NCBI GenBank assembly: GCA_003105035.1
Contig: PQAL01000018.1
Coordinates: forward strand, 62,001 to 126,000
Length of the DNA stretch: 64,000 nt
Origin: Anaerolineales bacterium
GTDB taxonomy: Bacteria > Chloroflexota > Anaerolineae > Anaerolineales > UBA4823
Direction of reading: 5' to 3'
Shown: piece by piece, positions 27,623 through 46,172 of the stretch
Layout of the letters: each line of letters opens with the position of its first letter
How positions within the stretch are numbered: position 1 is the first letter of the stretch
Notes under the pieces: generated by a model
What the model was told of the DNA's origin: nothing
Database searches by the model: none
What the model saw: only the letters and a program-made list of their open reading frames with translations
Made by a program: the position numbers and the translations under genes

Positions 27623-28546
27623 CTATTGTGATAAATAGCCATCGGCGTAGATGACTTTGTTGAGCAAGATTTGGATGGTCTTCCAGATTGCTGCCTGTTC
27701 AGGGTCAGACATATCTACGTCTTCCAGTTGAGGTTCTTCCATGGCTGAGATGCGATCTGCAATCTTCAGGTATAGTCTTCCAACAGGTGTGCTGGAATCT
27801 CGTTGTTCAATGATGCGGATGACTTCATTTTGCTCTAGATCAAGTGGATCCGCGATCATCATATTCATACCAACGCCCATCAGCATGGCACAATAAACCC
27901 GGTTGATCAACGGTCTTCCTTCGCGTGGGACTGCATTGGAAACATTGGATAGTCCGACTGATATTTGCGGTGGTGGATCCCAGGCGAACTGAAGTGTACG
28001 GATGGCTTCAATTAGATGAGGGCAATACTGTTGACAACCTGAGACAGTGAGGACTAATGGATCGATGATTAGATCTGTTATTGGGTAATCAATTTCCACC
28101 ATGCGTGGGATGAGCTTCTCTAAGGCAATGTTGACACGCTCATCCGCGGTAACCGGAACTCCACTCGTACTCATCGTCAGGGCAACCAGGCGAGCGTTAT
28201 ATTGCTTCGCCAGCAGTGGCACTTTTTCCAATCGTTCTGGCTCATCAGAAACGGAGTTGATGATTGGCTGAGCTTTGGTGACGGTCTTCAGGGCTGCTTC
28301 GACCCCCAGAATATTGATCGTATCTATGGACAATGGCACATCCACGACCGCTTCCACGGTCTTCACGATCCAGGGGAACATATCCATCCAGTCAACTTTG
28401 CGCGGGCCTAGATTAAGATCCAACGCCTGGGCTCCGGCTTCTACCTGCTTCACTGCCAGTTCTTGAAAGAATTTTGCATCCTTCGTTTTGACAGCTTCTT
28501 TCACCTTATCCGAAAGAATATGGATATTTTCACCAATGATGTACAT
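27623..28546 (-). CDS. acsE: Methyltetrahydrofolate:corrinoid/iron-sulfur protein methyltransferase
   Basis: A 307-residue pterin-binding TIM barrel like dihydropteroate synthase: MYIIGENIHILSDKV, AGAQALDLNLGP at about 37-48, PLSIDTINILGVEAAL, and later VGLSNVSNAVP. It moves the methyl group from methyl-THF to Co(I) of the AcsC/AcsD protein. It is longer than Moorella AcsE (262 residues) because of a tail of about 45 residues after IRIIEQRD. It lies 9 nt after acsV. Confidence 0.93.
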   Translation of the reverse strand: MYIIGENIHILSDKVKEAVKTKDAKFFQELAVKQVEAGAQALDLNLGPRKVDWMDMFPWIVKTVEAVVDVPLSIDTINILGVEAALKTVTKAQPIINSVSDEPERLEKVPLLAKQYNARLVALTMSTSGVPVTADERVNIALEKLIPRMVEIDYPITDLIIDPLVLTVSGCQQYCPHLIEAIRTLQFAWDPPPQISVGLSNVSNAVPREGRPLINRVYCAMLMGVGMNMMIADPLDLEQNEVIRIIEQRDSSTPVGRLYLKIADRISAMEEPQLEDVDMSDPEQAAIWKTIQILLNKVIYADGYLSQ

Positions 28547-30587: not shown

Positions 30588-31928
30588 TTAGAGTGCCTGT
30601 TTCATGAATGCGGGCAGGTCAACCGCTTCACGCGGCCCCACCCGGATCTCCCAATCGGGTAATTCTCCTTCCAACTCACCTGACAGGACAGCAACATGCC
30701 CCGGCAGGACGATACGCTTACGCGAGACCTTATCGGCAACATTGAAGCCCTTCACCGCTTTGGCGATCCTCTCGGCATCGAATTTGCCGGCCGCCCAGGC
30801 AGTCAGCACGCTCATTCCTTCCGCATCTGTCACCAGTAGCCAGGCAGGCAGACCTGAGCCTTCCACTTCATTCGCCACGCTGAAGTAAGTGATGCTGAAG
30901 TTGGTGGTTACCAGTACGGGCGATTCAGGTTTGGGTGCATTGATCTCATAGATACCGGGCTGGACCTGGATCGGTTTTTGCGGGTCGGTGTAGATATTCT
31001 GGCGCAGGACAAGCAGTGGATAGATGCTCGCCGGGCTGAAATGATCCATCACAATAAACCCGGCATATTTCGTGATCGCCTGCGCAGCGTGGAGTGCTTC
31101 TAGACCGGGGTCACCCACATCACCAGGGAAGGTGATCATCGGGAAGCCAAGGGCGCGGAAATTCTTCTTGATGGCTAATCGCCGGATTGTCGTGCCCAAT
31201 GCCAGGCCAGAACCCAGATCACGGCCACCCGGGTCGATCACCAGATCTTCAACACCTTTGGTTTTTATCTTTTCAGTGAGATCGGCCATCTCAGCCAGTG
31301 AACCGGCGACCACACCCAGGGAAGTCTTGGCTTCCTTGGCCAGGTCTGCGAAAGCTTCCCAATTTGTGGCATCTGCCCCATAGATCAATGGGGTCTCACC
31401 CTGTAGTGCCTTAAGACCTGCTCGGGCAACATTTGCATCGCGGGTCATCAGGATGACAGGACGTTTACTGGCCGCGCGTACTGCCTGGACGGCCGTTGTG
31501 AATGCGTTTGGGTCACCTGCGGTGGAAGCTACAACAAAACCGTCCACGGTCAGGTCCATACCGACATAGTTGACCGCATACGTACTCGCTTCGGTTACCA
31601 CTTCCTTAATGGCGTCAATAGGTTGGTTATCAAACAGCCTGATGAACAACCCTGGCTTGTTGTAGAAGGTTTTATCGTGCCTGAAGAGAACCACCTCGTT
31701 CCCTGCTTTCACTTCATAGCCATCAGATTTCAAGGTAACCAGGCGGATAGGTGGTGCAGCAGATTCAGCAAGTTGAGTCTTGGCTTCAGGGGTCACGTAC
31801 GGGCAGGCGGATAATTCCACCTGCTTGGCAGCCAGTTTCATGGCAAATGCCAGGCAGGTAGGGAAGCCGCACTCTTTACAGTTGGTTTGGGGTAGTAACT
31901 TATAGATTTGAATGCCAGTCAGAGCCAT
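30588..31928 (-). CDS. acsC: Corrinoid/iron-sulfur protein large subunit
   Basis: A 446-residue protein, the same length as Moorella AcsC. The N-terminal 4Fe-4S domain has C17, C20, C25 and C42 (NCKECGFPTCLAF). A TIM barrel and a C-terminal cobalamin-binding domain follow (LVTDAEGMSVLTAWAAGKF, then LPGHVAVLSGELEGELP). With AcsD it carries the methyl group from AcsE to the A-cluster of acetyl-CoA synthase. The ribosome site is GGAGAT. Confidence 0.95.
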   Translation of the reverse strand: MALTGIQIYKLLPQTNCKECGFPTCLAFAMKLAAKQVELSACPYVTPEAKTQLAESAAPPIRLVTLKSDGYEVKAGNEVVLFRHDKTFYNKPGLFIRLFDNQPIDAIKEVVTEASTYAVNYVGMDLTVDGFVVASTAGDPNAFTTAVQAVRAASKRPVILMTRDANVARAGLKALQGETPLIYGADATNWEAFADLAKEAKTSLGVVAGSLAEMADLTEKIKTKGVEDLVIDPGGRDLGSGLALGTTIRRLAIKKNFRALGFPMITFPGDVGDPGLEALHAAQAITKYAGFIVMDHFSPASIYPLLVLRQNIYTDPQKPIQVQPGIYEINAPKPESPVLVTTNFSITYFSVANEVEGSGLPAWLLVTDAEGMSVLTAWAAGKFDAERIAKAVKGFNVADKVSRKRIVLPGHVAVLSGELEGELPDWEIRVGPREAVDLPAFMKQAL

Positions 31929-31970: not shown

Positions 31971-32948
31971 TCAGGCAAGTGTATACGCGGCAGCCATCAG
32001 GTCCGTGATGGCAGTCTTTACCCGCCGGACACTCTCTGCATGACGCAGGACGACAATATCTGCTCCTGCTTCGATCAATGTCATGGCAGTTAAGGTTTCC
32101 CAGTTGATGGAACGTTCCAACCAGTCACCCCATCCATCGGGCACACCTGTGTTCACCTTGGCTTCCTTGGTTTTCCAGGCTTCGAATCCAGGGGTTACCA
32201 GCATGGGAAGCTGAGTCATCGCATCACCCTGCAAGGCAGCCTGGCGTAGCCTTTCCATGGCTGAAAAGCCGTATTCGATGCCATAACCGAGGGCGCCGGT
32301 GGTTGGGTCCATCAGGACCCTGTCAAGCGGCATGCCCATGTCGCTGATTAGGATATTCAGCTGCTTGGCCAGGTTGACATCCATGGGGCTGCGCGCGTTC
32401 ACCAAGTGACCATTGGCCATGGCAGTGGCGATGATCGTGCGGTAATTCTTATCTTCGGCAATACCTAGCACGATTTTTTCACCTTTGGTTGCCTCAGCAA
32501 TTGCCACAAGCAGGTTATTGTCTGCTTCAGCTTGCCCCGGACCGAATACAAGTAGCGGCAAACCGGTGTTCGCCAGCACATCCTTTACGGTTTTAACGGC
32601 GGCTTCGGGGCTGGTTGGATTGCCGTTGAGATCATTTAAAGAGAGGGATAGCTCAATCAGGTCTGCGCCTGCAGCTTCAGCGGCCTTAGCCCATTGAACT
32701 GGGTAATTCACCGCCTCTCCCCAGGCGTCGAGCAGCAACGTTGACCAATCTTCCGGTCGGTGGTCTTTGATCTCGATGGCGATCACCGGACGGTTGGGAG
32801 CTTTACTTTCAAAATGCAGGAAAGGTAGATTCTTTTCACCACCCACAGTCACTGTGGAAGTGCGTGTACCACCATCGGCAGCGGTCGCTCCAATGGTCAC
32901 CGTACGGACGGTGCCGGGCCAATTATCCTTAGGTATATCTACAGGCAT
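31971..32948 (-). CDS. acsD: Corrinoid/iron-sulfur protein small subunit (CODH/ACS delta)
   Basis: A 325-residue TIM-barrel protein close to Moorella AcsD in length. Visible are TVTVGGEKNLPFLHFE, AIEIKDHRPEDWSTLL, DLIELSLSLNDLNGNP and MGMPLDRVLMDPTTGALGYG. It pairs with AcsC and helps hold the cobalamin. It lies between acsB (31 nt upstream) and acsC (42 nt downstream). Confidence 0.94.
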   Translation of the reverse strand: MPVDIPKDNWPGTVRTVTIGATAADGGTRTSTVTVGGEKNLPFLHFESKAPNRPVIAIEIKDHRPEDWSTLLLDAWGEAVNYPVQWAKAAEAAGADLIELSLSLNDLNGNPTSPEAAVKTVKDVLANTGLPLLVFGPGQAEADNNLLVAIAEATKGEKIVLGIAEDKNYRTIIATAMANGHLVNARSPMDVNLAKQLNILISDMGMPLDRVLMDPTTGALGYGIEYGFSAMERLRQAALQGDAMTQLPMLVTPGFEAWKTKEAKVNTGVPDGWGDWLERSINWETLTAMTLIEAGADIVVLRHAESVRRVKTAITDLMAAAYTLA

Positions 32949-32979: not shown

Positions 32980-35247
32980 TTAGAACATCGGCTCCATGCT
33001 GAGGGCAGGATGTTCGTGCTCTGCCATCCAGTTCAGGAGTTCATCAACTGTGGATACAAGGCGCTCATCGGCGATCTTGTCGAGTAAATCGGGGTCACCT
33101 TCGCGCTGTGCTACGACCTTGAATTCATCTGCCATCATTTCCTTCAGGCAGCTGCTCATCCAAACGATTCGCTTAAAACCGCCATCAGCAGAGATAAACT
33201 TCGGGCTGGTCAGGTAAAATTTGCCTACACCCATTACGCCCGGGGTCTGAAGACCCCCTCCGGCAATCCCAGCCAGGGTACTGAAGGTCATACCCGCGGG
33301 GGTCATACTGGGATCTTCACGGCTAACCACCATGATGCCATTTGCTTCTGGGATAAGCATACAAATACATTCGAAGCACCCGCAAGCCGTCATCGGGTTT
33401 TCCATGATCGAATACATGGTTACTTCGCTCACCACCCCATGTGATCCGACGGTAGCGTAATCGTTGGTCCCGGTCCAATACCCCTTCTGCGGGTCGATCA
33501 GCTTACCCAGCTTAATTGGCTGATTGGGGCCCGTTGGGTTGATGCTATAGGATGCCTTGCAGTCCAACCAGTTATACGCTCCGCACAACCCCAGGCGCTC
33601 GGGGCTGACCACGCAAACGTGGTTGGGGGCAAATGACTGGCACAAGGTGCATGAGTAGAACTCTTCCACTTTGTCATCCGTCAGGTCTGCCAGGCGTTTA
33701 TTCCGGTAATCATACGCCGCCCGAGCTTTACCCAGCCATTCTTCAACCTTCGCCGGGTCGGTGTAAACCGTTACCTGGACCTTGTCCACGATCGCTCCAA
33801 AATCAGCGTGGAAACGCGCATGCAGGATCTTGCCAAAGTGCTCCAGGTTGAAGCCTTTGTCGGCGGCCGCATTTGAGATGCGGATCCAGGTGATGTCGCG
33901 CTGGCCAATATGCTGGATGCCTGAAGCGCCATTGACAAAATAGTGGAACTGGCGCTCGAGCACCGGTTCGAAGTCTTTCTGCATCTGGCGCCCAGCAACC
34001 TGGGCAACCACGCCCATATCCATATAACCCTGGGGTGGGATGTTGGAAAAATCAGGTCCAACGATTTCCACCTTACCGTCCACCACCGCATCCAGATCAG
34101 CCATCTCCAGGTATTCAAAGCAGCGGGCATTCTTGCCGCCGAATTCGACGCGCATGTCATTGCGGCGCACCACTTCACCTTCAAAAGCCGAGCCGTAAGG
34201 CACGGGTACGGGTACCTCGGTCAATTTTAACTTGACCCCACGCACCTCAATGCATTTCTGGACCAGCCGCTCAGCCTTCTCCAGGTCATCCTTGCCGTCA
34301 ATTTCTTCAAAGGGCATGCTGACCACGTGCTCGTAAGTGGTAACGCCGGTGGGCAGGATCTCGGGGATGACCGTATCGGCGATCACCGGGAAGCCGTAGT
34401 TGATGGCCCCGGCGGCGGCGGCGTATTTCAGGTCGTCCACCTCGCCCAGCGCCAGCACGAAGGCGAACACGCGTGCCCGGTTGTAGAGCAGGATCTCACG
34501 CGCTTGCCCCATCTTCAACCCGCCGAAAGTGAGGGCGGAACGGGTGGCAAAACCAAGGGCGTAGATAGCGCTGATCGTATCGGTTCCAAAAGGCACAGTA
34601 TAGGTGTCATACCCCAGCTCAACGCCCTCTTCCATTAATTGATGGATAATGCTCCGACCGTTGACGTTTCCAGAGAGGAAGCACAGGATATTGCGGCGCT
34701 GTAGCTCACGCACGATCTTGACCGCGACTTCATTGTTTTTGGCTGCACCAACAATGGCAGCAAAGCCGGGCATACGGCCATCCACCAGCTGGATGCCCCA
34801 GGATCGCAGGCGGATATCATCGATGGGTCCATTGAGATGACCGGACCCATTCTGATCCCCATACTGGGTGGCGCCAGCCAGGGAGAGCCCCGGCATCGGC
34901 TCGGGCTGCAGCCCGTATATGAACCGCACCACTTCTATGATTTCAGCGGCTAGCAATGTGGCCATACCACTGTCGAGGGTCTCACCCAGATAGGGCGTCC
35001 ACTTATTTACCGATGGGGAGGGGTGCAGCAGGCCGCGGGCATGCTCGATCACCCCTTTGAGCTGCCCTAATTTTTCAACTGTCGCACCGGTCATCCCACC
35101 GATAACTGGGATGTAATAAGCTGTGTTAGGAAAGGAGACAGGGGTGTCTGGTCCTTTTTCCTTCAGGGCCTTGTCTAACATTAATTCTGCTTCGGTTACC
35201 AGGGCATTTGCACCCCGGATTGCTCGTGTGGCTATATAACGTGACAT
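32980..35247 (-). CDS. acsB: Acetyl-CoA synthase, CODH/ACS catalytic subunit
   Basis: A 755-residue enzyme; Moorella AcsB has 729. It has the full three-domain layout, including the N-terminal CooS-binding region. The A-cluster ligands are C536 (in CTLCQSFAP, C533 and C536), then C622 and C624 in CGCFEC; the spacing of 86 between C536 and C622 equals that of Moorella C509 and C595. It joins CO, the methyl group from AcsCD and CoA into acetyl-CoA. The start is supported by GAGGAAGAG before the ATG. The gene begins 14 nt after cooS. Confidence 0.97.
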   Translation of the reverse strand: MSRYIATRAIRGANALVTEAELMLDKALKEKGPDTPVSFPNTAYYIPVIGGMTGATVEKLGQLKGVIEHARGLLHPSPSVNKWTPYLGETLDSGMATLLAAEIIEVVRFIYGLQPEPMPGLSLAGATQYGDQNGSGHLNGPIDDIRLRSWGIQLVDGRMPGFAAIVGAAKNNEVAVKIVRELQRRNILCFLSGNVNGRSIIHQLMEEGVELGYDTYTVPFGTDTISAIYALGFATRSALTFGGLKMGQAREILLYNRARVFAFVLALGEVDDLKYAAAAGAINYGFPVIADTVIPEILPTGVTTYEHVVSMPFEEIDGKDDLEKAERLVQKCIEVRGVKLKLTEVPVPVPYGSAFEGEVVRRNDMRVEFGGKNARCFEYLEMADLDAVVDGKVEIVGPDFSNIPPQGYMDMGVVAQVAGRQMQKDFEPVLERQFHYFVNGASGIQHIGQRDITWIRISNAAADKGFNLEHFGKILHARFHADFGAIVDKVQVTVYTDPAKVEEWLGKARAAYDYRNKRLADLTDDKVEEFYSCTLCQSFAPNHVCVVSPERLGLCGAYNWLDCKASYSINPTGPNQPIKLGKLIDPQKGYWTGTNDYATVGSHGVVSEVTMYSIMENPMTACGCFECICMLIPEANGIMVVSREDPSMTPAGMTFSTLAGIAGGGLQTPGVMGVGKFYLTSPKFISADGGFKRIVWMSSCLKEMMADEFKVVAQREGDPDLLDKIADERLVSTVDELLNWMAEHEHPALSMEPMF

Positions 35248-35261
35248 GTGTCTCTTCCTCT

Positions 35262-37283
35262 TTAATCAGCAGCGGTGCCGTAAATTTTCTCACGGCGTTC
35301 AGAGATGGGTAGTTTTTCAAACTCGAGCATGCGTGTGTCACCACTTCGGCCGAATTTCGCCGGGTCATATACCGGCAAGCCGAGGGAGGCGCGTTTCTTG
35401 TCAATGTGCTCCAGAGATCTGCGAACCATCTCGTTAATGTCGGAGACGAATTCGAGCTTTCCACCATACAGCTTTTCCCAACCCTCGGTGCTAATGTACT
35501 TGAGCACCACATCACTGTCGGAAACACGGTCGGGCATACCGCTGATTGGGCTGGCACCACCAAAAATGACATAAGCACCGGAAGCAACGCAATACGTGGC
35601 AATGGCCAGGGCTTTCTCGCTCATCCACTCAGGTGCGAGACCTACCGCAGGGATCTGGTCGATATCATCACCAAGGCCACCCTCTAACACCATCTGAGTT
35701 AGTACTGTCAGGATGCGGGTATTATCGACACAGGAACCCATGTGCAACACGGGTGGGATACCCACAGTCTCGCATATCTCGCGTAAACCCGGTCCGACCT
35801 TATCCAGTCCGGCTTCACCGAGTAGCAGACCGAGCTTGGCAGCCGCAATGGCACCACAGCCAGTCTCTACCACCAGCACATCCTGCTTGAGCAACTCCTG
35901 AGTGACATAGGTGTGGAGGTAATCTTGTTTGCTGCGGGGGTTGTTGCAGCCGACAATGGCAGCCACACCACGAATACGGCCGGACATGATGGCATCGTTC
36001 AAAGGCCTGAAGGAGGCTCGATAGCTGCCACCCAGCATGTAGTTGATGTACTCATGCGAAAATCCGGGGATAAGATCCTCCCGGATCTGCGGGATGTGGA
36101 TCTTGCCGCGGTTTTTATAATTATCGATGGAAGCTTTTAATATTTGCTTGGCGATGGTAAGGGCTTTGTGCTCATCGAATTCGATATGCATGGCACCCTT
36201 AATTTGCACCTTGGGGGAGGTGGTGATGATCTTGGTGTGGAAATTCCCTGCCAGCTCGACAAGAGCTTGCATGACACATTGCACATCTACCACCATGGAT
36301 TCCACAGCACCAGTCAGGATGGCCAGCTCCTGATGCAGGAAATTCCCTGCAGCGGGGATACCCTGGCGCATTAAGATCTCGTTGGCTGTGCAGCAGATCC
36401 CCGACAGGTTGACACCCTTAGCACCAGCCGCCTTGGCGTATTCGATGATCTCCGGATCTTGAGAGGCGGCAACGATCATGTTGCTCAGCGTGGGTTCGTG
36501 CCCGTGCACGACGACATTCACCATATCATCCTTCAGCACGCCCAGGTTAGCCTGACCAAGCAGGGGTGCCGGAGTGCCGAACAGGATATCCGAGATATCG
36601 GTAGCCATCATGCTTCCACCCCAGCCATCGGCCAGACCGGTGCGGATTGCGTGATGTAAGATGTGCACAGCGTCCTGGTCATCACCGATGTGCGTGCGGT
36701 GGAGGGCTTCAACCACCTCGCGGTCAACACCCCGGGGGACAACGCCTTGTTCCCGCCATAATTTTTGACGCTTTTCGGGTGCCCGCCTGATGCACACGAT
36801 CTCCCCTTTTTGCTGGCCATATTGCGAGAGGTATAAATCTGCCAGGTCATTGGCGATATCGTTGGGTGATCGGCCTTCAATTTTGATACCATATATCGAA
36901 GCGATGTTTCGAAGCTTGGCAACATCGCGAATCATGTAACCTTCGGTTTGACCATTGGCGACGGCTTTCAATGTGAATGCCAGATCGCGACCATGATCTG
37001 AATGGGCGGCTGTACCAGCTGCGATTGCCCTCACCAGGTTACGCGCCTGGATGGTGTCGATGGTCGCACCACATACACCCACCTGGCCTTCCTTGGTTAA
37101 CCGGCATGGTCCCATTCCGCATTGCTTGCAGCACATCCCAGCCCCACCAATATTGCAGGGGACCATTTCTTCAGCCCGGCTAAAGGCAGTGTTAATTCCC
37201 AGTTCATCCGCTCGGATGAGCATCTCCTGGGCCGCAGGATCTGATGTCCTATCCTCGTTGCTTCTTTTACCTTTAAGTACCAT
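35262..37283 (-). CDS. cooS: Ni-Fe carbon monoxide dehydrogenase catalytic subunit
   Basis: A 673-residue CODH. The B- and D-cluster Cys are at 43, 51, 52, 55, 60 and 71 (PCNIGGAGMCCKQCGMGPC, then GVCGA). C-cluster regions follow, with GVNLSGICCTANEIL, VVETGCGAIAAAKLG and LHMGSCVDNTRIL. It reduces CO2 to CO for AcsB, or oxidises CO. It starts 3 nt after the HMA-like gene, and its ribosome site lies inside that gene's last codons. acsB follows directly, so the two should form one CODH/ACS complex. Confidence 0.97.
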   Translation of the reverse strand: MVLKGKRSNEDRTSDPAAQEMLIRADELGINTAFSRAEEMVPCNIGGAGMCCKQCGMGPCRLTKEGQVGVCGATIDTIQARNLVRAIAAGTAAHSDHGRDLAFTLKAVANGQTEGYMIRDVAKLRNIASIYGIKIEGRSPNDIANDLADLYLSQYGQQKGEIVCIRRAPEKRQKLWREQGVVPRGVDREVVEALHRTHIGDDQDAVHILHHAIRTGLADGWGGSMMATDISDILFGTPAPLLGQANLGVLKDDMVNVVVHGHEPTLSNMIVAASQDPEIIEYAKAAGAKGVNLSGICCTANEILMRQGIPAAGNFLHQELAILTGAVESMVVDVQCVMQALVELAGNFHTKIITTSPKVQIKGAMHIEFDEHKALTIAKQILKASIDNYKNRGKIHIPQIREDLIPGFSHEYINYMLGGSYRASFRPLNDAIMSGRIRGVAAIVGCNNPRSKQDYLHTYVTQELLKQDVLVVETGCGAIAAAKLGLLLGEAGLDKVGPGLREICETVGIPPVLHMGSCVDNTRILTVLTQMVLEGGLGDDIDQIPAVGLAPEWMSEKALAIATYCVASGAYVIFGGASPISGMPDRVSDSDVVLKYISTEGWEKLYGGKLEFVSDINEMVRRSLEHIDKKRASLGLPVYDPAKFGRSGDTRMLEFEKLPISERREKIYGTAAD

Positions 37284-37286
37284 TGA

Positions 37287-37682
37287 TTAATCCTCCATTG
37301 GCTTTGAAATAATACCCATACCAGGGCAAGGCCAGAGAGGACGGCCCAGGTAGGCTACATTTTGTGCGAAAGTTACCGTTAATCGAGTCTGTTCGTAGGC
37401 TGCCGTATGGCGAAAATACGGCTTCAAGCCTTCGGTAGAATGGTAGGCTGTAGCACCTGACTCGATGGGTACAGTCCATTCCCCCAGGTATCCCGCCTCA
37501 TCCAGCTTCATAGCAATTTGCAGGTCGTTGATCTTTTCAGGGTCGTAGGTCACCTCTACAACCTGGAAGGCGCTGCTGGCATACACATCTTCCACCCCAG
37601 GCAGCTCCAACAAAATCCGTCTCACCTCGGTAACATGGTGATCCCCGTACAGTGAGGGGGTCTCGAAAGTTACTTTTAGCAT
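37287..37682 (-). CDS. HMA-fold-like protein without CxxC, upstream of cooS
   Basis: The protein has 131 residues from the ATG at 37682, chosen because GGAGG lies 5 nt upstream; a longer ORF adds six residues. Residues 1-65 fit the beta-alpha-beta-beta-alpha-beta pattern of heavy-metal-associated domains (LKVTFETPS, EVRRILLELPGVEDVYAS, VVEVTYDPEKI, LDEAGY). The metal loop, normally M-x-C-x-x-C, reads YGDHHVTEV, with D14, H15 and H16. The second half has EQTRLTVTFAQNVAYLGRP and one Cys (WPCPGMG). I infer a metal-handling or assembly helper for CooS; the function is not established. Confidence 0.6.
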   Translation of the reverse strand: MLKVTFETPSLYGDHHVTEVRRILLELPGVEDVYASSAFQVVEVTYDPEKINDLQIAMKLDEAGYLGEWTVPIESGATAYHSTEGLKPYFRHTAAYEQTRLTVTFAQNVAYLGRPLWPCPGMGIISKPMED

Positions 37683-37798
37683 ATGTTCCTCCAAAGGCAT
37701 TGATAAGATATAGAATTAATGATGAATGCAAAAAAAGTGTATTATTTTAAGAAGTCGTCCTCCAGGATAGAATGTCAGCTTTTTTATGTACAAAACGC

Positions 37799-38365
37799 TT
37801 AAAATTGGTCATCGGTGGCCCGTAAACGCAAGATCAGGTGGGTTACATCGCGTAGCTCCCCATCTGGGAGCATGAAGTAGTCATCAAAAACGGTTTTTGG
37901 CTCAAATCCCAGGTTCTGGAAGGAGCGGATGATGGGTGTCTGGTCGCTGGGGATCTGTGCTTCGATCAGGTACAGATTGTGGCGCTTGGCAAGCTCAATC
38001 AAGCCCTGCAGCAGCCGGCTGCCTACGCCGCGGTGCCGGAAGTCCTTAGGAAGAAATATGCGTACTTCTGCTCGGTGCCGGGCAGGCCCCTGGTTGAGAT
38101 GCAAGCTGGCCAGACCTACGATTCGGCTGCCAAATACAGCCACCAATGGAAATACCTTGGTATAGTCCAATTCATCTACCCACTGGTCGATAACCTTCGT
38201 ATCGATGAGATTATGGCGCATATACTTCAAGTCATCCACTGATACTGGTCCGAATAGATCAATTAATGCCTGGCGATCGTCATGGGTGAGTGGGCGGAGT
38301 AGAATCCGGGCACCATCCTTTAGGGTGAACACCTGGCGGTAGATGAGATCTTCCTTGGTAACCAT
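37799..38365 (-). CDS. GNAT-family N-acetyltransferase (Pat-like)
   Basis: The protein has 188 residues from the ATG preceded by AGGAG (start about 38365); the frame stays open 66 nt further up into the neighbouring gene. The acetyl-CoA-binding motif is FRHRGVGSRLL (about 109-119). A Glu in HRAEVRIFL (E100) sits where Pat-type protein acetyltransferases keep their catalytic Glu. ILLRPLTHDDRQALIDLFGPVS at the start is like the GNAT part of mycobacterial Pat, in which a cyclic-nucleotide-binding domain comes first in the same chain. Here that domain is the gene directly upstream, 28 nt away. A protein-lysine acetyltransferase acting on acetyl-CoA enzymes is a reasonable inference. Confidence 0.8.
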   Translation of the reverse strand: MVTKEDLIYRQVFTLKDGARILLRPLTHDDRQALIDLFGPVSVDDLKYMRHNLIDTKVIDQWVDELDYTKVFPLVAVFGSRIVGLASLHLNQGPARHRAEVRIFLPKDFRHRGVGSRLLQGLIELAKRHNLYLIEAQIPSDQTPIIRSFQNLGFEPKTVFDDYFMLPDGELRDVTHLILRLRATDDQF

Positions 38366-38393
38366 ACCTGCGCTCCTTGGTCTACTAATTGCC

Positions 38394-38864
38394 TTATTTT
38401 GCCCATGCCGCAGCGAGCTGGACGCGTGCATAGGCCAGCCGTTCCATAGCTGCTTTCGCAGTCTCTCGCATTAAAATGCAATACAATCTTGGGTCTTTTT
38501 CAATCAGCTTGTTCAGTTCACCGGCATCGAACTTGATCACCCTGCTAGCCTGCTCTGCCTTGACCGTAGATGTAAACTTGTAGGGCTCGATAAACACGCT
38601 GATGGCGAATACCTCGCCGGGGTTGATTTCACCTACTAAAAAATCTTTGCGGGTGTTTGGGTGGAATTCTTCTTCCGACTTGTAATACAGGCTGACTCCG
38701 CCATCCATGAGTAGGTAAAATGCCGTAGCAGGCTGCCCTTCCTCGCATATAACAGCGCCTTTGGCGAAGGATTCCTCTTCAGCAATCATGGCAAATGCCT
38801 TGATCTGAGCGTCTGATAGTGAACCGAAGAATGGATAACGGCGAATAATTTCAGGTGAAACCAT
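38394..38864 (-). CDS. Cyclic-nucleotide-binding-fold protein without DNA-binding domain
   Basis: A 156-residue protein consisting of one CNB (Crp-type) beta-roll and C-terminal helices. Visible are PFFGSLSDAQIKAFAMIAEE, VICEEGQPATAFYLLMDG and INPGEVFAISVF. There is no helix-turn-helix, so it is not a transcription factor. In the phosphate-binding cassette the GE pair is present but the Arg expected before the next strand is missing (the place reads KFTSTVKAE), so the natural ligand may not be a cyclic nucleotide. It is followed by the GNAT gene, the same order as the domains of mycobacterial Pat. Confidence 0.82.
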   Translation of the reverse strand: MVSPEIIRRYPFFGSLSDAQIKAFAMIAEEESFAKGAVICEEGQPATAFYLLMDGGVSLYYKSEEEFHPNTRKDFLVGEINPGEVFAISVFIEPYKFTSTVKAEQASRVIKFDAGELNKLIEKDPRLYCILMRETAKAAMERLAYARVQLAAAWAK

Positions 38865-38876
38865 CGGGATTCCTCC

Positions 38877-39383
38877 TCAGTTTATAGATTGGTCTATGTT
38901 GGGTGCTTCTTCAGCACCTGATTCTATCAGTAAATCCTGAATAATTCTTAATGCTTGGGGGACAGCGGCAGCCACTGCCGGCGACATTTCATCTGAGAAC
39001 TCGTATATCTTCTGAGATTCAACGGTTACAACCGATATAACCTCGGGCAGCTGAGCTCCGAGGGAAAGACCCATCTGAAGGGCATTCACCAGCGATGTGT
39101 CATGCGCTGAAGTCATATGCCCTGAGGTCAGGTTGGGTAAATCTTCAAGTTTATAGCAGCTAACGCTGCCCACGGGAGCCTGGTGAGTAATGATCGCGTC
39201 TATTAGAATTGCCCTGTCATAACCGATGAGCGCTTCCATTAAGCTAATTCCACCCAGTGCCAGGCATTCGATGGTTACGTTTGATGGAATACCTTGTGTC
39301 TTCTGTAGCTCTTGTGCAATCTGCCAGCCGATTCCATCATCTCCTAATATGGGGTTCCCCAATCCAACAACTAACGTTTTCAC
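38877..39383 (-). CDS. [NiFe] hydrogenase maturation endopeptidase
   Basis: A 168-residue protease of the HycI/HyaD/FrhD family, with the diagnostic start VVGLGNPILGDDGIG (about 5-19) and later SVVTVESQKIYEFSDEMSPA. It removes the C-terminal peptide of the hydrogenase large subunit once nickel is in place. MvhA, just upstream, ends in a DPCxxCxxH motif plus a 27-residue tail, the expected substrate. It lies 67 nt after mvhA. Confidence 0.9.
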   Translation of the reverse strand: MKTLVVGLGNPILGDDGIGWQIAQELQKTQGIPSNVTIECLALGGISLMEALIGYDRAILIDAIITHQAPVGSVSCYKLEDLPNLTSGHMTSAHDTSLVNALQMGLSLGAQLPEVISVVTVESQKIYEFSDEMSPAVAAAVPQALRIIQDLLIESGAEEAPNIDQSIN

Positions 39384-39450
39384 TTGGTTATGGTCTGATA
39401 AATTGAGTGAAGGCTCCAGGAGAGATTCCCAGAGCCTTCACTTCGTTCAT

Positions 39451-40917
39451 TTAGCAATTCTGTTTTAGGATGTTAACGGTCTCGCCGTTGGCATCTTTGA
39501 TGATGATCTCAAGTGGCATCTGACCGGGCAGGCTGTGCGTTGCGCAGCCGAAACATGGGTCGTAGGCTCGGAAGGCCATTTCAACCATATTGAGTATTCC
39601 TTCCGAAACTTCACCGCCCTTCTTGATCAGATTTTGAGCCGCCTTCTTGGTTGACATCTGGATGGGTGCATAATTGTTGGTTGTCCCAACGATCAGGTTG
39701 ACCTTGGTGGTGATCCCGCGCTCATCGGTCCAGTAGTGATGGGTGAGTGTGCCGCGAGGCGCTTCAACGATACCCACACCTTCGGTGGGGGTTTCGGTCG
39801 GGATGGTGCGGAAGTTATCACTGGTGATTTCCGGGTCCGTTGCGAGTTCCACCCACCGCTCAGCTGCATAAAGCAGCTCGATCAGTCGGGCCCAATGGAT
39901 CGCCAGTCGCTGGTGGACCGGTTTTCCGCCCAGGGTGCTATAGAACTTCTCGTATTCAGCCTGGGCTAATGGGGTGGCCATACCATCTGCCGCATTGAGC
40001 CGTGAGAGTGGTGTAGCCATGTAAACGCCCGAATCCTTGCCATCTACGAAACCTTTCCAACCAACTTTCTTAAGGTAGGGGAATTTCAGGTATGTCCATG
40101 GCTCGACATGTTCAGCGATCCAGTCCATATACTCATTGGCTGCGTACTTCCCCAAGCGCTTGCCTTCGGGGTCAACCACACTGACCTTACCGTCGTAGAA
40201 ATTGACTTTATTGTTCTCATCGACGGTACCGATGTAATAGGTGTGGTGAGTGTAGATGTCTCCCAGGATCAGGTCGACGTATTCTTTATTGCCAAGGACG
40301 ATATCGTTGAAGGCTTGCAGGGAGAACTGGGCAAATTCGATCGCCCAGCGGCCCATATTCTCGATCTCTACGCGTTGTTCCTCGGTGATACCTTTGGTCA
40401 ATCCTCCAGGGATCGAAGTGCAGGGGTGAACTTTCCGCCCACCGATCATCTCAACCACGGTGTGGCCGTACTTGCGCATCTGAAGCACCTTGCCACCGAT
40501 CTCCAGGCCCACCTTGTGGATGACACCCAGGATATTGCGCTCAGCAACCGGTGCAGTCGGCCCCATGATAAAGTCTGGGCCGGCCAGGGCATAAAAGTGG
40601 GTGGTATGGTCGGTGCAGTAGAAGGCGCTGTACAGCAGCTCGCGTAGCATCTTGCCAGTGCGAGGTGGATCGACATGGTACACAGCATCGACGGCTTTGG
40701 CACCTGCCATGTGGTGGGCCTCGGGGCACACACCACAGATGCGGTTGGTCAGAATGGGTACTTCTTCGACCTGACGGCCGACACAGAAGCGTTCAAAACC
40801 GCGCAGCTCAGGGATTTGGAAGTATGAGTTGGCGAAATTTCCCTCGTCATCCAGGAATATTTCGATCTTTCCATGGCCTTCCAGCCGGGTGATGGGGTCA
40901 ATTGATATTCTTTGCAT
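39451..40917 (-). CDS. mvhA: F420-non-reducing-type [NiFe] hydrogenase large subunit
   Basis: A 488-residue group 3 hydrogenase catalytic subunit. The N-terminal Ni ligands are in RICGVC (C61, C64) and the C-terminal ligands in DPCFGCATH (C455, C458). After H461 there are 27 residues (SLPGQMPLEI and on) that should be cleaved by the maturation protease. The Mvh context (MvhG, MvhD, HdrABC) points to group 3c. It oxidises H2 and passes electrons through MvhG and MvhD to HdrA. Confidence 0.94.
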   Translation of the reverse strand: MQRISIDPITRLEGHGKIEIFLDDEGNFANSYFQIPELRGFERFCVGRQVEEVPILTNRICGVCPEAHHMAGAKAVDAVYHVDPPRTGKMLRELLYSAFYCTDHTTHFYALAGPDFIMGPTAPVAERNILGVIHKVGLEIGGKVLQMRKYGHTVVEMIGGRKVHPCTSIPGGLTKGITEEQRVEIENMGRWAIEFAQFSLQAFNDIVLGNKEYVDLILGDIYTHHTYYIGTVDENNKVNFYDGKVSVVDPEGKRLGKYAANEYMDWIAEHVEPWTYLKFPYLKKVGWKGFVDGKDSGVYMATPLSRLNAADGMATPLAQAEYEKFYSTLGGKPVHQRLAIHWARLIELLYAAERWVELATDPEITSDNFRTIPTETPTEGVGIVEAPRGTLTHHYWTDERGITTKVNLIVGTTNNYAPIQMSTKKAAQNLIKKGGEVSEGILNMVEMAFRAYDPCFGCATHSLPGQMPLEIIIKDANGETVNILKQNC

Positions 40918-40932
40918 GGTTTCCTCCTCCGG

Positions 40933-41922
40933 TTATCCTTTCCACGCGGGTTTACTGAAGCGCAGCAGCGAGCCTGCCAGGTTGAAGCGGTAGAACTGCC
41001 CGGCTGGGTCGGGGATGCCTTCAAAGATCTTTTCAATCTCTGCCGGGTCGTTGCTATCTACCACCGAAGCTACTGCGGTCATCAGGCGTGATCCGTAATC
41101 TTCAGCACCTTCAGCGGGGCCGTAGCAACCAATGCAAGGGCTACCAGCTTTCGGGCACAGTGCTGAACAGCCACTGCGCGTGGCAGGGCCACTGCACAGC
41201 ACGCCTTGCTCGAGGATGCACAGCTCGGGATCAATCATGATGTGTTGGATGCGCTCGAACTTCTTGATCTTCTTTTCGTTGCGCTTGCGGGTACATTCAT
41301 CACAGACCGTAGAGTTACCCACGCCAATGACCGATCCAGCGGGAGGTAGCTCGGCTTTACCTTGCAGCACCTGGATCACCAGGTCGATCACAGCCGCGAT
41401 CTGGTGAGACTCGGGCGGGCAACCAGGCATGTAGTAATCCACCGGCACGACCTGGTCCAGTGTCCGCACCACCGGGTAGAGCGTGGGGATATGTAGCTCG
41501 CCCTCAGGCACGCTGAATTTGGTGTTGGGGCGGATATTCTGGGGATTGTCAGTCGATGGTGTGCTGAATGCAGTGTCTACGATCTCCTGGATATTGCTCA
41601 GGTTAGCTAAAGCGGGCATACAGCCTTCATTGGCGCAAGAACCGAACGCCACCAGGAGCTTAGATTTCTTCCGTAAAAGTTTGGCGATATGCTCATTCTC
41701 GTCGTTGCGGATAGCCCCGTTGAACAGGGTGAGCAGGATCGAGCCATCTTCCATGGCTTCGACATCCTTGTACTTGGCGTCCATGGCAACCGGCCAGAAG
41801 ACTACCTCGAAATTGGCATCCACATCCAGGATTTTCTCATGGATGTTGAGCACTGCGATCTCACAACCACCGCACGAAGCAGCCCAGTACATGGCAAATT
41901 TAGGTTTTCCGTTACCGCTCAT
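40933..41922 (-). CDS. mvhG: F420-non-reducing-type [NiFe] hydrogenase small subunit
   Basis: The protein has 329 residues from the ATG at 41922, which has GGAGGTG upstream and overlaps the mvhD stop by 4 nt; a longer frame would run 75 nt into mvhD. The proximal cluster ligands lie in SCGGCEIAVL, GSCANEG and YMPGCPPE. Further Cys in VCDECTRKR, CSGPATRSGCSALCPKAG and CIGCYG serve the medial and distal clusters. There is no Tat signal, so the enzyme is cytoplasmic. It relays electrons from the Ni site to MvhD. Confidence 0.94.
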   Translation of the reverse strand: MSGNGKPKFAMYWAASCGGCEIAVLNIHEKILDVDANFEVVFWPVAMDAKYKDVEAMEDGSILLTLFNGAIRNDENEHIAKLLRKKSKLLVAFGSCANEGCMPALANLSNIQEIVDTAFSTPSTDNPQNIRPNTKFSVPEGELHIPTLYPVVRTLDQVVPVDYYMPGCPPESHQIAAVIDLVIQVLQGKAELPPAGSVIGVGNSTVCDECTRKRNEKKIKKFERIQHIMIDPELCILEQGVLCSGPATRSGCSALCPKAGSPCIGCYGPAEGAEDYGSRLMTAVASVVDSNDPAEIEKIFEGIPDPAGQFYRFNLAGSLLRFSKPAWKG

Positions 41923-42398
41923 GCCGACACCTCCTTGACCAGCATTTGCTCTGGCATGGCGAACATCTTCTCCAGGCCACCTCCACTGGTTGGCCACTGC
42001 AGAGGGCCTAGTTCCCTTACCTGCTCGACGAATTTGTTGACCTCATCGGTGAAAATGGCGCCTTCAGCTGCGCTGGCCCATAATAGTTTGATTCGGCCAG
42101 TCTCGATGCCCAACTGCGCCAGGGTCTTCTTGAGGATGACGAAGCGCCGCATGGCTTTATAGTTCTGCTCTACATAGTGGCAGTCACCAGGGTGACAGCC
42201 GGTGATCATCACGCCGTCCGCTCCCCCGGCAAAAGCCTTGAGCACGAAGGTTGGGTCAAGGCGTCCGGAGCACATCAGGCGGATCAGGCGGATGTTGGGT
42301 GAATATTTCATCCTGGCTGTGCCTGCCATATCGGCTGCGCGATAACTACACCAGTTACAGGTGAAACCGATGATTACGGGTTCGAATTGATCGCTCAT
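41919..42398 (-). CDS. mvhD: Hydrogenase iron-sulfur subunit, electron link to HdrA
   Basis: A 159-residue MvhD-type 2Fe-2S protein. The Cys are in FTCNWCSYRAADMAG, RLMCSGRLDP and TGCHPGDCHY. It connects the hydrogenase to HdrA in the electron-bifurcating complex. In acetogens without MvhAG it can link HdrABC to MetVF; here both possible partners are encoded. It sits between hdrA (12 nt upstream) and mvhG. Confidence 0.92.
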   Translation of the reverse strand: MSDQFEPVIIGFTCNWCSYRAADMAGTARMKYSPNIRLIRLMCSGRLDPTFVLKAFAGGADGVMITGCHPGDCHYVEQNYKAMRRFVILKKTLAQLGIETGRIKLLWASAAEGAIFTDEVNKFVEQVRELGPLQWPTSGGGLEKMFAMPEQMLVKEVSA

Positions 42399-42410
42399 AT
42401 CGTTCTCCTT

Positions 42411-44423
42411 TTATGCCGGCACAGGCTCTGGCTCAAGTCGTTTGACATTGAGCAGTAAGAGGCCTTCGAGCTGAGCCAGGATTTGCTGGTCGCTGAAGCC
42501 AGTTCCAGTGATCGCACCGGCCGGGCAGCCTGCAACGCAGGTGCCACAACCCTGGCACAAGGCTGGGTTGACCTCGGATACCATCTTGTCTTCGTGGAAC
42601 AGGATGGCACTGAACGGGCAAAGGTTGTTGCAGATGCGGCAGCCAGAGCACTTATCCTGGTTGACTGTCGCCCGGATGGGTTCCATAGCGACTTCTTTTT
42701 GCTGGATCTTGCCCATCACACGCGCTGCGGCTGCAGCGCCTTGGGCAACGCTGGCTGGGATGTCTTTCGGTCCCTGTGCAACGCCGGCGATATAAATACC
42801 ATCGGTCATCGTAGCCACCGGATCGAGCTTCGGGTGCCTCTCGATAAGCCAGCCATCCGAGCTGCAAGAAAGGCCGAACATCCGTCCGACATCTTTTGCA
42901 TCGTGGCGGGGTTCGAGCCCTGCGGAGAGCACTACCATATCAACCGGAATGCGGCGCTGCTTGCCGATCAGTGTGTCTTCGGCCTGGATGATCAGCTTGC
43001 CTTCTTCACCGGGATTGCGGGCTGCATCCGTCACTTCTGCCACACGCCCGCGGATGAAGTGCGTGCCTTCTTCCATGATGCGCTGGTAGAACTCATCGTA
43101 AGCCTTGGCTGGAGTGCGGATGTCGATGTAGAAATTGTACACTTCAGCGCCTGTCTTCTCATGCGCCAGGTGAGCAAATTTTAAGCTCTGCATGCAGCAG
43201 ATGCTGGAGCAGTAATTGTTGTAATTCTTATCACGACTGCCCACGCAGTGGATGATGGCGATGGATTTCGGTACAGTCACCCCATCGCGTAAGAATACTT
43301 TGCCACCCGTTGGCCCAGCTGCATTGGTCAGGCGCTCAAACTCCAAGCTGGTGAAGACATTCGCCAGGCGCCCATAGCCATACTGGGGGATGCGTCGGGC
43401 GTCGAAAAGGTCATAACCTGTGGCCAGGATGATCTGCCCAACATCGATCTGTAAAGTAGTCTCTTCCTGGTTGAAGTTAATGGCATTGGTGGGGCAGAAT
43501 TTCTCGCATGCCTTGCAAGTGCCTTTCTGGAAGAAGGTGCAGTTTTCCCGATCAATGACTGGAAACTTTGGCACAGCCTGGGGGAAGGGGGTGTAAACGG
43601 CTTTCCGGTAGCCCAATCCAGCTTCGAAGACTTCATCAACCACTTTCTTCGGGCATTTTTCCTGGCAGATACCGCAACCTGTGCAGGTAGCGGTGTCAAT
43701 ATAGCGGGGTTTTTGGCGGATGGTGACCTGGAAATTTCCTACGTAGCCATCTACGTGGGTTACTTCTGCCCAGGTGAGCAGGGTGATGTTGGGGTGATTC
43801 CCAACGTCGACCATCTTGGGGGTCAGGATGCAAGCAGAGCAATCGAGGGTGGGGAAAGTCTTGTCAAACTGGGCCATGTGACCGCCGATAGATGGTTCAC
43901 GCTCGACCATGTAGACATGTGTTCCGCCATCCGCGATCTCAAGGGCCGCCTGGATTCCAGCGATCCCACCACCAACGACCAGCGTCGCAGGGTGAATGGG
44001 GACTCTGAGTGGGGTCAAGGGTTCATGCCAGATGATCCGCTCGACTCCGCCCGCCACGATGGCTTTCGATTTTTCAGTCGCAGCAACCTTATCTGAGTGG
44101 ACCCATGAGACTTGCTCACGGATTGAAACAAGTTCGCACAGATACGGGTTCAACCCAGCGTTTTTACAGGCATTGCGGAAGGTTTTTTCATGCAGGTGGG
44201 GGGAGCAGGCAGCTACCACCACGCGGGTCAGGCCAAGTTCCTTGATATCCTTCTCGATCAGCTCCTGCCCAAGGCTAGAACACATGAACTTGTAATCTCG
44301 GGCGATCACCACTCCACGGTGCTTCAGCTGTTCAGCTGCCCACTTGGCAACATCAGCTACATCAACGGTGCCGGCGATGTTGCTGCCACAGTGACATACA
44401 TATACACCAATTTTCTCTGTCAT
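42411..44423 (-). CDS. hdrA: Heterodisulfide reductase subunit A, flavin-based electron bifurcation
   Basis: A 670-residue HdrA. It has the N-terminal GVYVCHCGSNIAGTVDV, the FAD-binding LVVGGGIAGIQAALEIADGG at about 147-166, and LDCSACILTPKM. It then has ferredoxin-type clusters CTGCGICQEKCPKK, CKACEKFCPT, CSGCRICNNLCPF and CQGCGTCVAGCPAG. Its FAD is the site where electrons from H2 are split between ferredoxin and a higher-potential acceptor. Length and layout match the usual single HdrA. It starts 2 nt after hdrB. Confidence 0.95.
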   Translation of the reverse strand: MTEKIGVYVCHCGSNIAGTVDVADVAKWAAEQLKHRGVVIARDYKFMCSSLGQELIEKDIKELGLTRVVVAACSPHLHEKTFRNACKNAGLNPYLCELVSIREQVSWVHSDKVAATEKSKAIVAGGVERIIWHEPLTPLRVPIHPATLVVGGGIAGIQAALEIADGGTHVYMVEREPSIGGHMAQFDKTFPTLDCSACILTPKMVDVGNHPNITLLTWAEVTHVDGYVGNFQVTIRQKPRYIDTATCTGCGICQEKCPKKVVDEVFEAGLGYRKAVYTPFPQAVPKFPVIDRENCTFFQKGTCKACEKFCPTNAINFNQEETTLQIDVGQIILATGYDLFDARRIPQYGYGRLANVFTSLEFERLTNAAGPTGGKVFLRDGVTVPKSIAIIHCVGSRDKNYNNYCSSICCMQSLKFAHLAHEKTGAEVYNFYIDIRTPAKAYDEFYQRIMEEGTHFIRGRVAEVTDAARNPGEEGKLIIQAEDTLIGKQRRIPVDMVVLSAGLEPRHDAKDVGRMFGLSCSSDGWLIERHPKLDPVATMTDGIYIAGVAQGPKDIPASVAQGAAAAARVMGKIQQKEVAMEPIRATVNQDKCSGCRICNNLCPFSAILFHEDKMVSEVNPALCQGCGTCVAGCPAGAITGTGFSDQQILAQLEGLLLLNVKRLEPEPVPA

Positions 44424-44425
44424 GG

Positions 44426-45394
44426 CTAACTCTCCTCCGGCATTCGTGGCATTGGAAGCTCTTCCTTGGAAGGTTTCTTCTTCTTGGTTGGTTCAGCTTC
44501 CGGCACCTGTACACCGATCTTGGCCAGTGCCTGCCGTGCATCCACCAGCTCTTTGCCAATGCCCAGCTCGCCAGCTGAAAAGCCGAAAGCTAAGCCCATC
44601 ATCTGGGTGAAATACAGGACGGGTATGTGATATTTGGTCTTGAAAAAGCGGTTCACATCTCCCTGGTATGCATCCAGGTTTAGCTGACACATGGGGCACA
44701 GAGTGACGATGATATCCGCTTCATATTCAGCGGCATTCTGGAGTAATTGGCGGATCAACTCAAGCGCCACAGCCTGGCTGATTTGAGTCATGTGTCCACC
44801 GCAACAATGGGCTTTCATGGGGTAATCCACCACGGTTGCCCCGAGGCCCTTCATGATCTTATCGAGAGAGGTCGGATATTCGTAGTCGTCAAATTTCGAC
44901 AGGTACCCCGGTCGGGTGATTAAGCAGCCATAATATGGGGCTACCTTTAAACCGCTGAGTGGTTTCGTGACTTTGGAGGCGATCGCTTCCACCCCGATAT
45001 CTTCGATCATGATCTCCAGCAGGTGCCTTGCTCGAACGGAGCCGGGGGTATAGTGCAAGTCACCGGCAGCCAGAGCCAGATTGACGTTCTTAGCCAGTGT
45101 AGCGTCTTCACTCAGATAGTGATCGGCCTTGGCCATGTTGAGGAAGCACATGCTGCATGGGGCAGCCACCTGTTTCCCGTCGGTGAGCTGTTTCTCTGCC
45201 AGAGCCAGGTTGCGGGTGATGAGGGCATAAGCTGCCATGCGGTTAAGCGTCATGTACTCGGTGGCACCGCAGCAGTTCCAATCTTCCAGTTCCTGGAATT
45301 CGATTCCCAAAGGCTTGGCGACTGCCAGTGTAGACATGTTATATGAAGCTGCGTTTTTCTCAAGCGAGCAGCCGGGATAATATCCGTATTTCAT
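44426..45394 (-). CDS. hdrB: Heterodisulfide reductase subunit B
   Basis: The protein has 322 residues and two CCG domains: YPGCSLEKNA ... DWNCCGATEYM ... PCSMCFLNM, and PYYGCLITRPG ... AHCCGGHMTQ ... LCPMCQLNLD. In methanogens each CCG motif binds a non-cubane 4Fe-4S cluster that cleaves CoM-S-S-CoB. A bacterium lacks that substrate, so the acceptor here is probably different, perhaps MetVF or another disulfide. The tail after about residue 300 is Lys-, Glu- and Pro-rich (EPTKKKKPSKEELP). It overlaps hdrC by 4 nt. Confidence 0.94.
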   Translation of the reverse strand: MKYGYYPGCSLEKNAASYNMSTLAVAKPLGIEFQELEDWNCCGATEYMTLNRMAAYALITRNLALAEKQLTDGKQVAAPCSMCFLNMAKADHYLSEDATLAKNVNLALAAGDLHYTPGSVRARHLLEIMIEDIGVEAIASKVTKPLSGLKVAPYYGCLITRPGYLSKFDDYEYPTSLDKIMKGLGATVVDYPMKAHCCGGHMTQISQAVALELIRQLLQNAAEYEADIIVTLCPMCQLNLDAYQGDVNRFFKTKYHIPVLYFTQMMGLAFGFSAGELGIGKELVDARQALAKIGVQVPEAEPTKKKKPSKEELPMPRMPEES

Positions 45395-45972
45395 ATCTCA
45401 CCTTCCAGTTCCTTGGCCTTTGCCAGGATTGCCTTCAGATTATCCATACCCTTGATCTTCTTTGGGGTGATGTCGATACGGCCTTTGCGGAGCAGTCCCG
45501 TTGCCATGGGCATGATCTTTGGCATATCCAGGGGATGGTACTTGAGATGGTACCAGGTCGCCAGCCCGAGCTCAAAACTTCGGCCGTAATTCTCAACATA
45601 GTGGATGAATGTTTGTGAAAACGGGGGGGCGTCTGCGGAAGACGAATCTTGATAATACTTCTCTTGAATGGAGAATCTCTTGAGTGTGTACATCAGGTCA
45701 GTGACGTGCACTTCTTGAGGGCAGCGTACCGTGCAGTAATAACACGACACACAGTACCAGGGAGTATTGCTGCTCAATACCTGGGTCTCCATACCCGCCT
45801 TGATCATTGCGAACAGGGCACGTGGTGTGTGATCCATATCGGCGCCTGAGGGGCAAGAGCCTCCACAGGTGCCACACTGGATGCACATCTCCAATCGAGG
45901 TGTTCCAGGTGTTGCAGCTACTACTCTGTCAAAAATCGTTGGAGCTCTTGCTTGCGTTGTGGCTTCCGCCAT
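45391..45972 (-). CDS. hdrC: Heterodisulfide reductase subunit C
   Basis: A 193-residue protein with two 4Fe-4S motifs: CIQCGTCGGSCP (C30, C33, C36, C40) and CVSCYYCTVRCPQ at about 73-85. It passes electrons between HdrA and HdrB. As the first gene of the block it has a strong ribosome site, GAGGAGG, and about 290 nt of intergenic DNA upstream that should hold the promoter of the whole Wood-Ljungdahl unit. Confidence 0.94.
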   Translation of the reverse strand: MAEATTQARAPTIFDRVVAATPGTPRLEMCIQCGTCGGSCPSGADMDHTPRALFAMIKAGMETQVLSSNTPWYCVSCYYCTVRCPQEVHVTDLMYTLKRFSIQEKYYQDSSSADAPPFSQTFIHYVENYGRSFELGLATWYHLKYHPLDMPKIMPMATGLLRKGRIDITPKKIKGMDNLKAILAKAKELEGEI

Positions 45973-46172
45973 AGAAACCTCCTCTTAAATTAATACTTCC
46001 GGGTTGCCCGGTGGTTAAAATTTGGTGCTTTTGTCATTTAAATACAATAACCAAGTCTTCAAACTGTTACCAACGACTGTAACATACATTAAAACAATAC
46101 ATCTAAAAGGCGATGAATATATTATTGTCGAACCAGAATATCATTACCAGTGGATAAGTACATACAACATTA

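Follow-up and report, generated by a model that had tools for sequence, protein, structure and literature searches.

The window analysed here, a 64-kb stretch of DNA from an Anaerolineales bacterium, carries a minus-strand run of genes in the order HdrC-HdrB-HdrA-MvhD-MvhG-MvhA-HycI protease-CNB-GNAT-HMA-CooS-AcsB-AcsD-AcsC-AcsV-AcsE. A first-pass annotation had drawn attention to two adjacent genes inside this CODH/hydrogenase block, one for a cyclic-nucleotide-binding-fold (CNB) protein and one for a GNAT acetyltransferase, and this placement was confirmed. Both genes are located where an MvhADG-HdrABC [NiFe] hydrogenase operon meets a CODH/ACS operon, with hydrogenase genes on one side, CODH/ACS genes on the other, and all of them on the minus strand. 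The features are as follows.

45391..45972, minus strand: HdrC-like subunit (profile matches)
44426..45394, minus strand: HdrB-like subunit (profile matches)
42411..44423, minus strand: HdrA-like subunit (profile matches)
41919..42398, minus strand: MvhD-like subunit (profile matches)
40933..41997, minus strand: hydrogenase small subunit, MvhG/VhuG-like (profile matches)
39451..40917, minus strand: [NiFe] hydrogenase large subunit, MvhA/VhuA-like (profile matches)
38877..39383, minus strand: hydrogenase maturation protease, HycI/HyaD type (profile matches)
38394..38864, minus strand: CNB-fold protein, 156 aa, without HTH, in a HoxI-like position behind the hydrogenase protease (Pfam, locus survey)
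37799..38365, minus strand: GNAT acetyltransferase, 188 aa, of a subfamily of Wood-Ljungdahl gene clusters (Pfam, relatives, model, neighbourhood survey)
37287..37700, minus strand: HMA-domain protein, 137 aa, upstream of CooS (profile matches)
35262..37283, minus strand: CooS, anaerobic carbon monoxide dehydrogenase catalytic subunit (TIGR01702, 598.4 bits, cut-off 478)
32980..35247, minus strand: AcsB, acetyl-CoA synthase (954.6 bits, cut-off 800)
31971..32948, minus strand: AcsD (profile match)
30588..31928, minus strand: AcsC (profile match)
28556..30523, minus strand: AcsV-like corrinoid reactivator (best model 651.1 bits, under the cut-off of 800)
27623..28546, minus strand: AcsE-like methyltransferase (best model 211.1 bits, under the cut-off of 259)

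By coordinates, the protease and CNB genes are separated by 12 nt, CNB and GNAT by 28 nt, GNAT and HMA by 98 nt, and HMA and CooS by 3 nt. Promoter and terminator sites across positions 35000-46400 were no more frequent than in shuffled sequences, and none was found on the minus strand between CNB and GNAT; a separate promoter or terminator at that point was therefore rejected. No RNA element reached its gathering score within the 64-kb window. A small HMA-domain protein directly upstream of CooS, as at 37287-37700 of the window, recurs in many Chloroflexota (loci L098, L109, L111, L116, L117, L118, L120, L121 and L127), and is a candidate metal chaperone for CO dehydrogenase.

The protein encoded at 38394-38864 matches Pfam cNMP_binding over residues 31-124 (49.1 bits against a cut-off of 27.5). 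This is its sole Pfam match at 0.001 and no HTH domain was found, in agreement with the earlier description of a 156-residue CNB-fold protein lacking one; for this reason a role as a transcription regulator was rejected. The position of the phosphate-binding arginine is occupied by Phe97, and of the 44 family sequences, counting the window protein, just one has arginine there, which bears out the suspicion that this residue is missing. A plain cAMP receptor was rejected on the same ground. Pro94 and Arg142, by comparison, are kept in all 44 sequences. The predicted structure is middling (pLDDT 75.0), and both the closest solved structure by sequence and the first fold match are PDB 3mdp, Gmet_1532 of Geobacter metallireducens, which is 37% identical over 143 aligned positions. 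Like the window protein, Gmet_1532 has no arginine in its phosphate cassette, and its KPY corresponds to EPY in the window CNB.

To place this protein we surveyed 298 genomes of the class, 56 of which have a CNB match at 1e-15, and examined the 29 best-scoring loci outside the window's genome with flanks of up to 1.5 kb. The HycI protease adjoins CNB at 25 of these 29 loci, with MvhA beyond it at 23 of the 25, and is absent at the remaining 4; a GNAT gene was found within 1.5 kb of CNB at none of the 29. In one genome (G315; L084:412-1434, also L152) the hydrogenase maturation protease and CNB form a single frame of 323 residues. At six loci (L017, L018, L024, L026, L029 and L044) the hydrogenase is followed by a tandem of two CNB genes, and at L017, L018, L026 and L029 the second resembles the CNB of one Burkholderia hydrogenase operon around its PY motif. 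The window's genome has a second CNB gene (G000:C5:175055-175519; L002, L149), 48% identical to the first; the 14 kb read around it showed no gene recognisable as a hydrogenase component.

Outside the class, the order of hydrogenase large subunit, protease and CNB in the window is that of Cupriavidus necator pHG1. Matches to plasmid CNB genes comprised 239 records, four of which were opened: two, both from Burkholderiaceae, lie in [NiFe] hydrogenase operons, and the other two (Ilyobacter and Streptomyces) do not. The C. necator gene is hoxI; according to PMC3702609 and PMC3189943, its product sits as a dimer on the diaphorase and has a site for activation by NADPH. PMC12319191 reports a HoxI gene within a group 3b hydrogenase cluster as well. 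HoxI of the soluble hydrogenase is, like the window protein, a CNB-fold protein (about 165 residues) encoded directly behind the large subunit and the maturation protease. The two are 25% identical over 95 residues, with a single-pair E of 8e-7 that may also be within reach of other CNB domains. HoxI is, however, bound to the HoxFU diaphorase, whereas HoxFU is absent from the window operon, which has MvhD and HdrA/HdrB/HdrC instead. Because sequence identity is low, the likeness is one of place and fold and not proven membership. Together, these observations indicate that CNB goes with the hydrogenase, and it looks like a part of that enzyme rather than one half of a split sensor-enzyme.

The GNAT keeps different company. 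It belongs to a distinct, unnamed subfamily that is tied to the Wood-Ljungdahl pathway. Among the 298 genomes, AcsB is present in 44 of the 46 with a strong GNAT match, compared with 125 overall (Fisher p 6e-17, uncorrected for kinship), where strong means 1e-30 or better, a cut chosen after the list was known; at a looser cut of 1e-12, 45 of 59 GNAT-matching genomes have AcsB. The two strong-GNAT genomes without AcsB are incomplete (82% and 70%). Conversely, 81 of the 125 AcsB genomes have no strong GNAT match, so the gene is dispensable for the pathway. GNAT and AcsB share a contig in 21 of the 44 genomes, on the same strand in 21/21 and within 12.4 kb in 20/21; in the other 23 they are on different contigs, the assemblies being often fragmented.

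A similar picture was obtained from the gene neighbourhoods of all fetched loci, which yielded 76 non-identical GNATs including the window's. Neighbours were recognised by likeness to 26 window proteins; many flanks measured 1.5 kb, and the shortest only 15 bases. CODH/ACS or MetVF genes lie within 5 kb and on the same strand at 51 of the 76, and the count rises to 67 when CooC, HMA, Hdr, Mvh and HycI genes are included; the remaining 9 have no pathway, Hdr/Mvh or maturation gene so placed, some of their flanks being short. The association of the GNAT with CODH/ACS, hydrogenase and acetyl-CoA enzymes proposed from the window alone is thus upheld across genomes and loci. Its position within the clusters varies: the gene is inserted between MvhD and MetVF (12 cases), CooS and AcsB (9), MetVF and MalicE (6), AcsV and AcsE (4) or AcsV and CooC (4), further junctions include HdrA with HdrC and MetVF with HdrC, and it is sometimes found beside CooC, HMA or HycI genes. 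Since the linkage persists through so many rearrangements, the GNAT has probably been selected to keep the pathway company. Around weaker relatives of the GNAT, a recognised CODH/ACS gene was found in 0 of 21 surroundings and a MetVF-like gene in one, several of these contigs being short.

The subfamily was also sought more widely. A scan of one genome per species across 84,980 species returned 45 GNAT loci, all titled as Chloroflexi/Chloroflexota or its groups, including two labelled Candidatus Aquidulcis, which NCBI places in Chloroflexota; the scan used a single conserved motif and will miss diverged copies. In a second sample of 400 genomes of the phylum, 11 GNATs scored above 220 bits and 11/11 lie in pathway clusters, seven of them already in the first sample and four new. 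One of these four, from a genome of another class (G406), stands in the order AcsB-AcsD-AcsC-CooC-GNAT-AcsV-AcsE, with an AcsV only 43% identical.

Two further features of these clusters were observed. At L148:6566-11221, an HdrA-like fusion of 1551 aa that combines several flavin and Fe-S modules is encoded upstream of the GNAT in a MetVF-Hdr cluster. In G014, G018, G064, G097, G103, G149, G176, G214 and G232 the AcsB match is split, with breaks near residues 537 or 625 and 619, in open frames of about 990-2380 aa, the pattern that inteins would give.

These surveys bear directly on the idea, put forward in the first-pass annotation, that CNB and GNAT make up a split Pat, each supplying one half of a single ligand-controlled lysine acetyltransferase. 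Pat acetylates the active-site lysine of acetyl-CoA synthetase, and Pat of the Rv0998 type has CNB and GNAT in one chain, in the same order as the window genes, which are two, with a stop and 28 nt between them. The short gap itself speaks for a pair, as does the NCBIfam Pat model, which matches hydrogenase-operon CNBs within positions 3 to 129 and then the GNAT over 132-266. That model has a whole-protein cut-off of 460 bits, however; the window GNAT scores 25.5 bits, and no match to the model was found in the window CNB at 0.001. Pat's CNB also carries the cAMP phosphate-binding arginine that the window protein lacks. Within the window's own family (25 genomes, 13 with GNAT), 7 of the 13 have an intact CNB adjoining the GNAT, one of these pairs having a gap of about 0.5 kb. 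In G318 it is a molybdopterin oxidoreductase and a formate/nitrite transporter, not Mvh, that precede the pair, which also favours a pairing. At another locus (L102) the same oxidoreductase and transporter are followed by a GNAT without a recognised CNB.

Other observations speak against a pairing. CNB is the nearest recognised upstream gene at only 11 of the 76 GNAT loci, all with GNATs at least 56% identical to the window's, and one of the 11 is a remnant: in G308 (L080:2133-2542), all that is matched between MvhA and an intact GNAT is a central portion of the protease and the C-terminal 64 residues of CNB, through either a deletion or an assembly error. At L103 the GNAT follows HycI with no CNB between. 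Among AcsB genomes the two genes occur independently, GNAT being present in 13 of 40 with CNB and 31 of 85 without (p = 0.69); the CNB set at 1e-15 also includes paralogues that may not lie beside a hydrogenase. The fusion observed is of HycI with CNB, the protease being CNB's neighbour at 25/29 loci and GNAT at 0/29, and no CNB-GNAT fusion was seen among the loci read. The two parts that Pat joins thus mostly live apart here. Because the surveyed neighbourhoods separate CNB, with the hydrogenase, from GNAT, with the pathway, a split Pat appears very unlikely, and was rejected as the main reading on gene-neighbourhood grounds. The survey next to cooS/acs in other Chloroflexota that the annotation had called for was strongly positive for the GNAT alone.

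What, then, does the GNAT acetylate? The mechanically called frame starts at 38431, and relatives align from the Met at 38365, giving 188 aa. The protein is a member of the GNAT superfamily, having both an Acetyltransf_1 match above the Pfam cut-off (46.6 bits against 20.7) and a GNAT fold (model pLDDT 91.6; Z up to 21.0 to GNAT structures). The features described earlier are all present: the start 28 nt after CNB, FRHRGVGSRLL, and HRAEV with Glu as residue 100. Across 71 sequences, His97 is invariant, residue 100 is acidic (Glu or Asp) in 63 and one of Lys, Gln, Trp, Arg or His in the other 8, and the positions of the acetyl-CoA loop R110-x-x-G113-x-G115 are kept in 70, 71 and 70, respectively. 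Resemblance to the S. lividans Pat extends to the GNAT fold, to a DG then RP N-terminal motif, and to Glu100, which aligns with the AEV glutamate; the glutamate at this position is catalytic in Pat.

In Foldseek, the top-ranked structure is S. lividans Pat, its GNAT domain bound to a domain from acetyl-CoA synthetase, and Rv0998 and PatZ are among the first six. By Z, the S. lividans Pat chain is level with RimJ-type and RimL-type proteins and with two structures whose function is not named; scores for antibiotic and polyamine acetyltransferases are almost as good, so that fold lists drawn from the predicted model cannot separate protein from small-molecule acetyltransferases. One alternative is accordingly that the GNAT acetylates a metabolite, a cofactor precursor or a toxic amine arising with the pathway. 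Its top NCBIfam profile is the arsinothricin acetyltransferase ArsN1, aminoglycoside acetyltransferases are also among the nearest, phosphinothricin-acetyltransferase structures are among the sequence matches, and the would-be general base at residue 100 varies. All of these profile scores are far below their cut-offs, however, the top folds include protein acetyltransferases, and it is hard to see what common metabolite would explain insertion into ACS, MetVF-Hdr and Mvh operons alike; we regard a small-molecule substrate as rather unlikely. Another alternative is that the GNAT helps the metalloenzymes to mature or acetylates their N termini, or that it is a non-catalytic sensor of acetyl-CoA. 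The tie with RimJ- and RimL-type N-terminal protein acetyltransferases for best fold match, the occasional position beside CooC, HMA or HycI genes, and again the variable residue 100 are consistent with such a role, but the 81 AcsB genomes that do without a strong GNAT match argue against it, as does the near-complete conservation of the acetyl-CoA loop, and we judge it distinctly unlikely.

In a tree of 37 rows, the pathway GNATs group together with support of 98/99. Other families of the class have GNAT domains fused to AMP-forming acyl-CoA synthetases (L135:699-2894 and L137:157-2379), and these fusions hint at protein lysine targets. The domain in the Anaerolineae fusions is related, but no pathway genes lie beside the two that were read. 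Three of the four fusion rows fall outside the pathway clade; the fourth, acsfus_L138, falls inside it on a branch of 4.18, and we regard it as misread (L137 and L138 entered the tree shortened to 200 residues). A separate GNAT elsewhere in the window's genome (L010) clusters, through a long branch, with S. lividans Pat.

We give an even chance to the combined proposal that CNB is an accessory subunit of the hydrogenase and the GNAT a stand-alone, pathway-dedicated protein acetyltransferase of a Pat- or At2-like kind with acetyl-CoA feedback. The two would be of different origin, meeting at the joint of two operons. CNB would be an accessory subunit of the MvhADG-HdrABC hydrogenase, as HoxI is of the soluble hydrogenase; its fold, without the cAMP phosphate clamp, may accommodate a different ligand, NAD(P)H being one candidate, or nothing but a partner protein, and CNB would adjust or stabilise the hydrogenase. 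For the GNAT, we infer that acetyl-CoA, the product of the pathway, would be the donor for lysine acetylation of CODH/ACS, MetVF or Hdr/Mvh proteins. Such acetylation would throttle CO2 reduction when acetyl-CoA is plentiful, the enzyme sensing acetyl-CoA as its own substrate. The window's genome encodes two SIR2 and one HDAC-type deacetylase, and sirtuin or HDAC-type enzymes of this kind, located elsewhere in the genome, could reverse the modification.

Precedent for such control comes from Clostridium ljungdahlii, in which, according to PMC7439476, acetylation affects 11 of 13 pathway enzymes, and At2, a one-domain GNAT without a sensor domain, lowers FDH1 activity by 80.9%. The window GNAT is likened to At2 by description, not by sequence: both are one-domain GNATs tied to the Wood-Ljungdahl pathway. 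At2 differs in being, according to PMC7439476, a global acetyltransferase whose gene neighbours a chemotaxis gene, an antiporter gene and fdhE, whereas the window GNAT lies in a pathway cluster. According to PMC7918482, the share of acetylated proteins in Dehalococcoides grows from 5% to 11% as stationary phase is approached, and a GNAT is itself highly acetylated. Searches of open-licence PubMed Central papers, PMC3971608 and PMC5736913 among them, found no account of a GNAT in Chloroflexota CODH/ACS clusters or of CNB in Mvh operons.

Regulation of the Wood-Ljungdahl pathway by lysine acetylation has been reported in a clostridial acetogen, where it proceeds via a global enzyme. More tentatively, a Chloroflexota acetyltransferase family built into Wood-Ljungdahl operons may use what the pathway makes to acetylate its CODH/ACS, MetVF and Hdr/Mvh enzymes, as a hard-wired product feedback, and in the window's family it would also stand beside, and perhaps under, a HoxI-like hydrogenase sensor. 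If this is true, the GNAT subfamily would be a pathway-dedicated modifier, kept in CODH/ACS, MetVF-Hdr and Mvh clusters despite many rearrangements and as far as another class. The analysis also places a HoxI-like CNB protein in MvhADG-HdrABC hydrogenase operons, and it names an enzyme and candidate targets in Chloroflexota that are known mostly from metagenomes.
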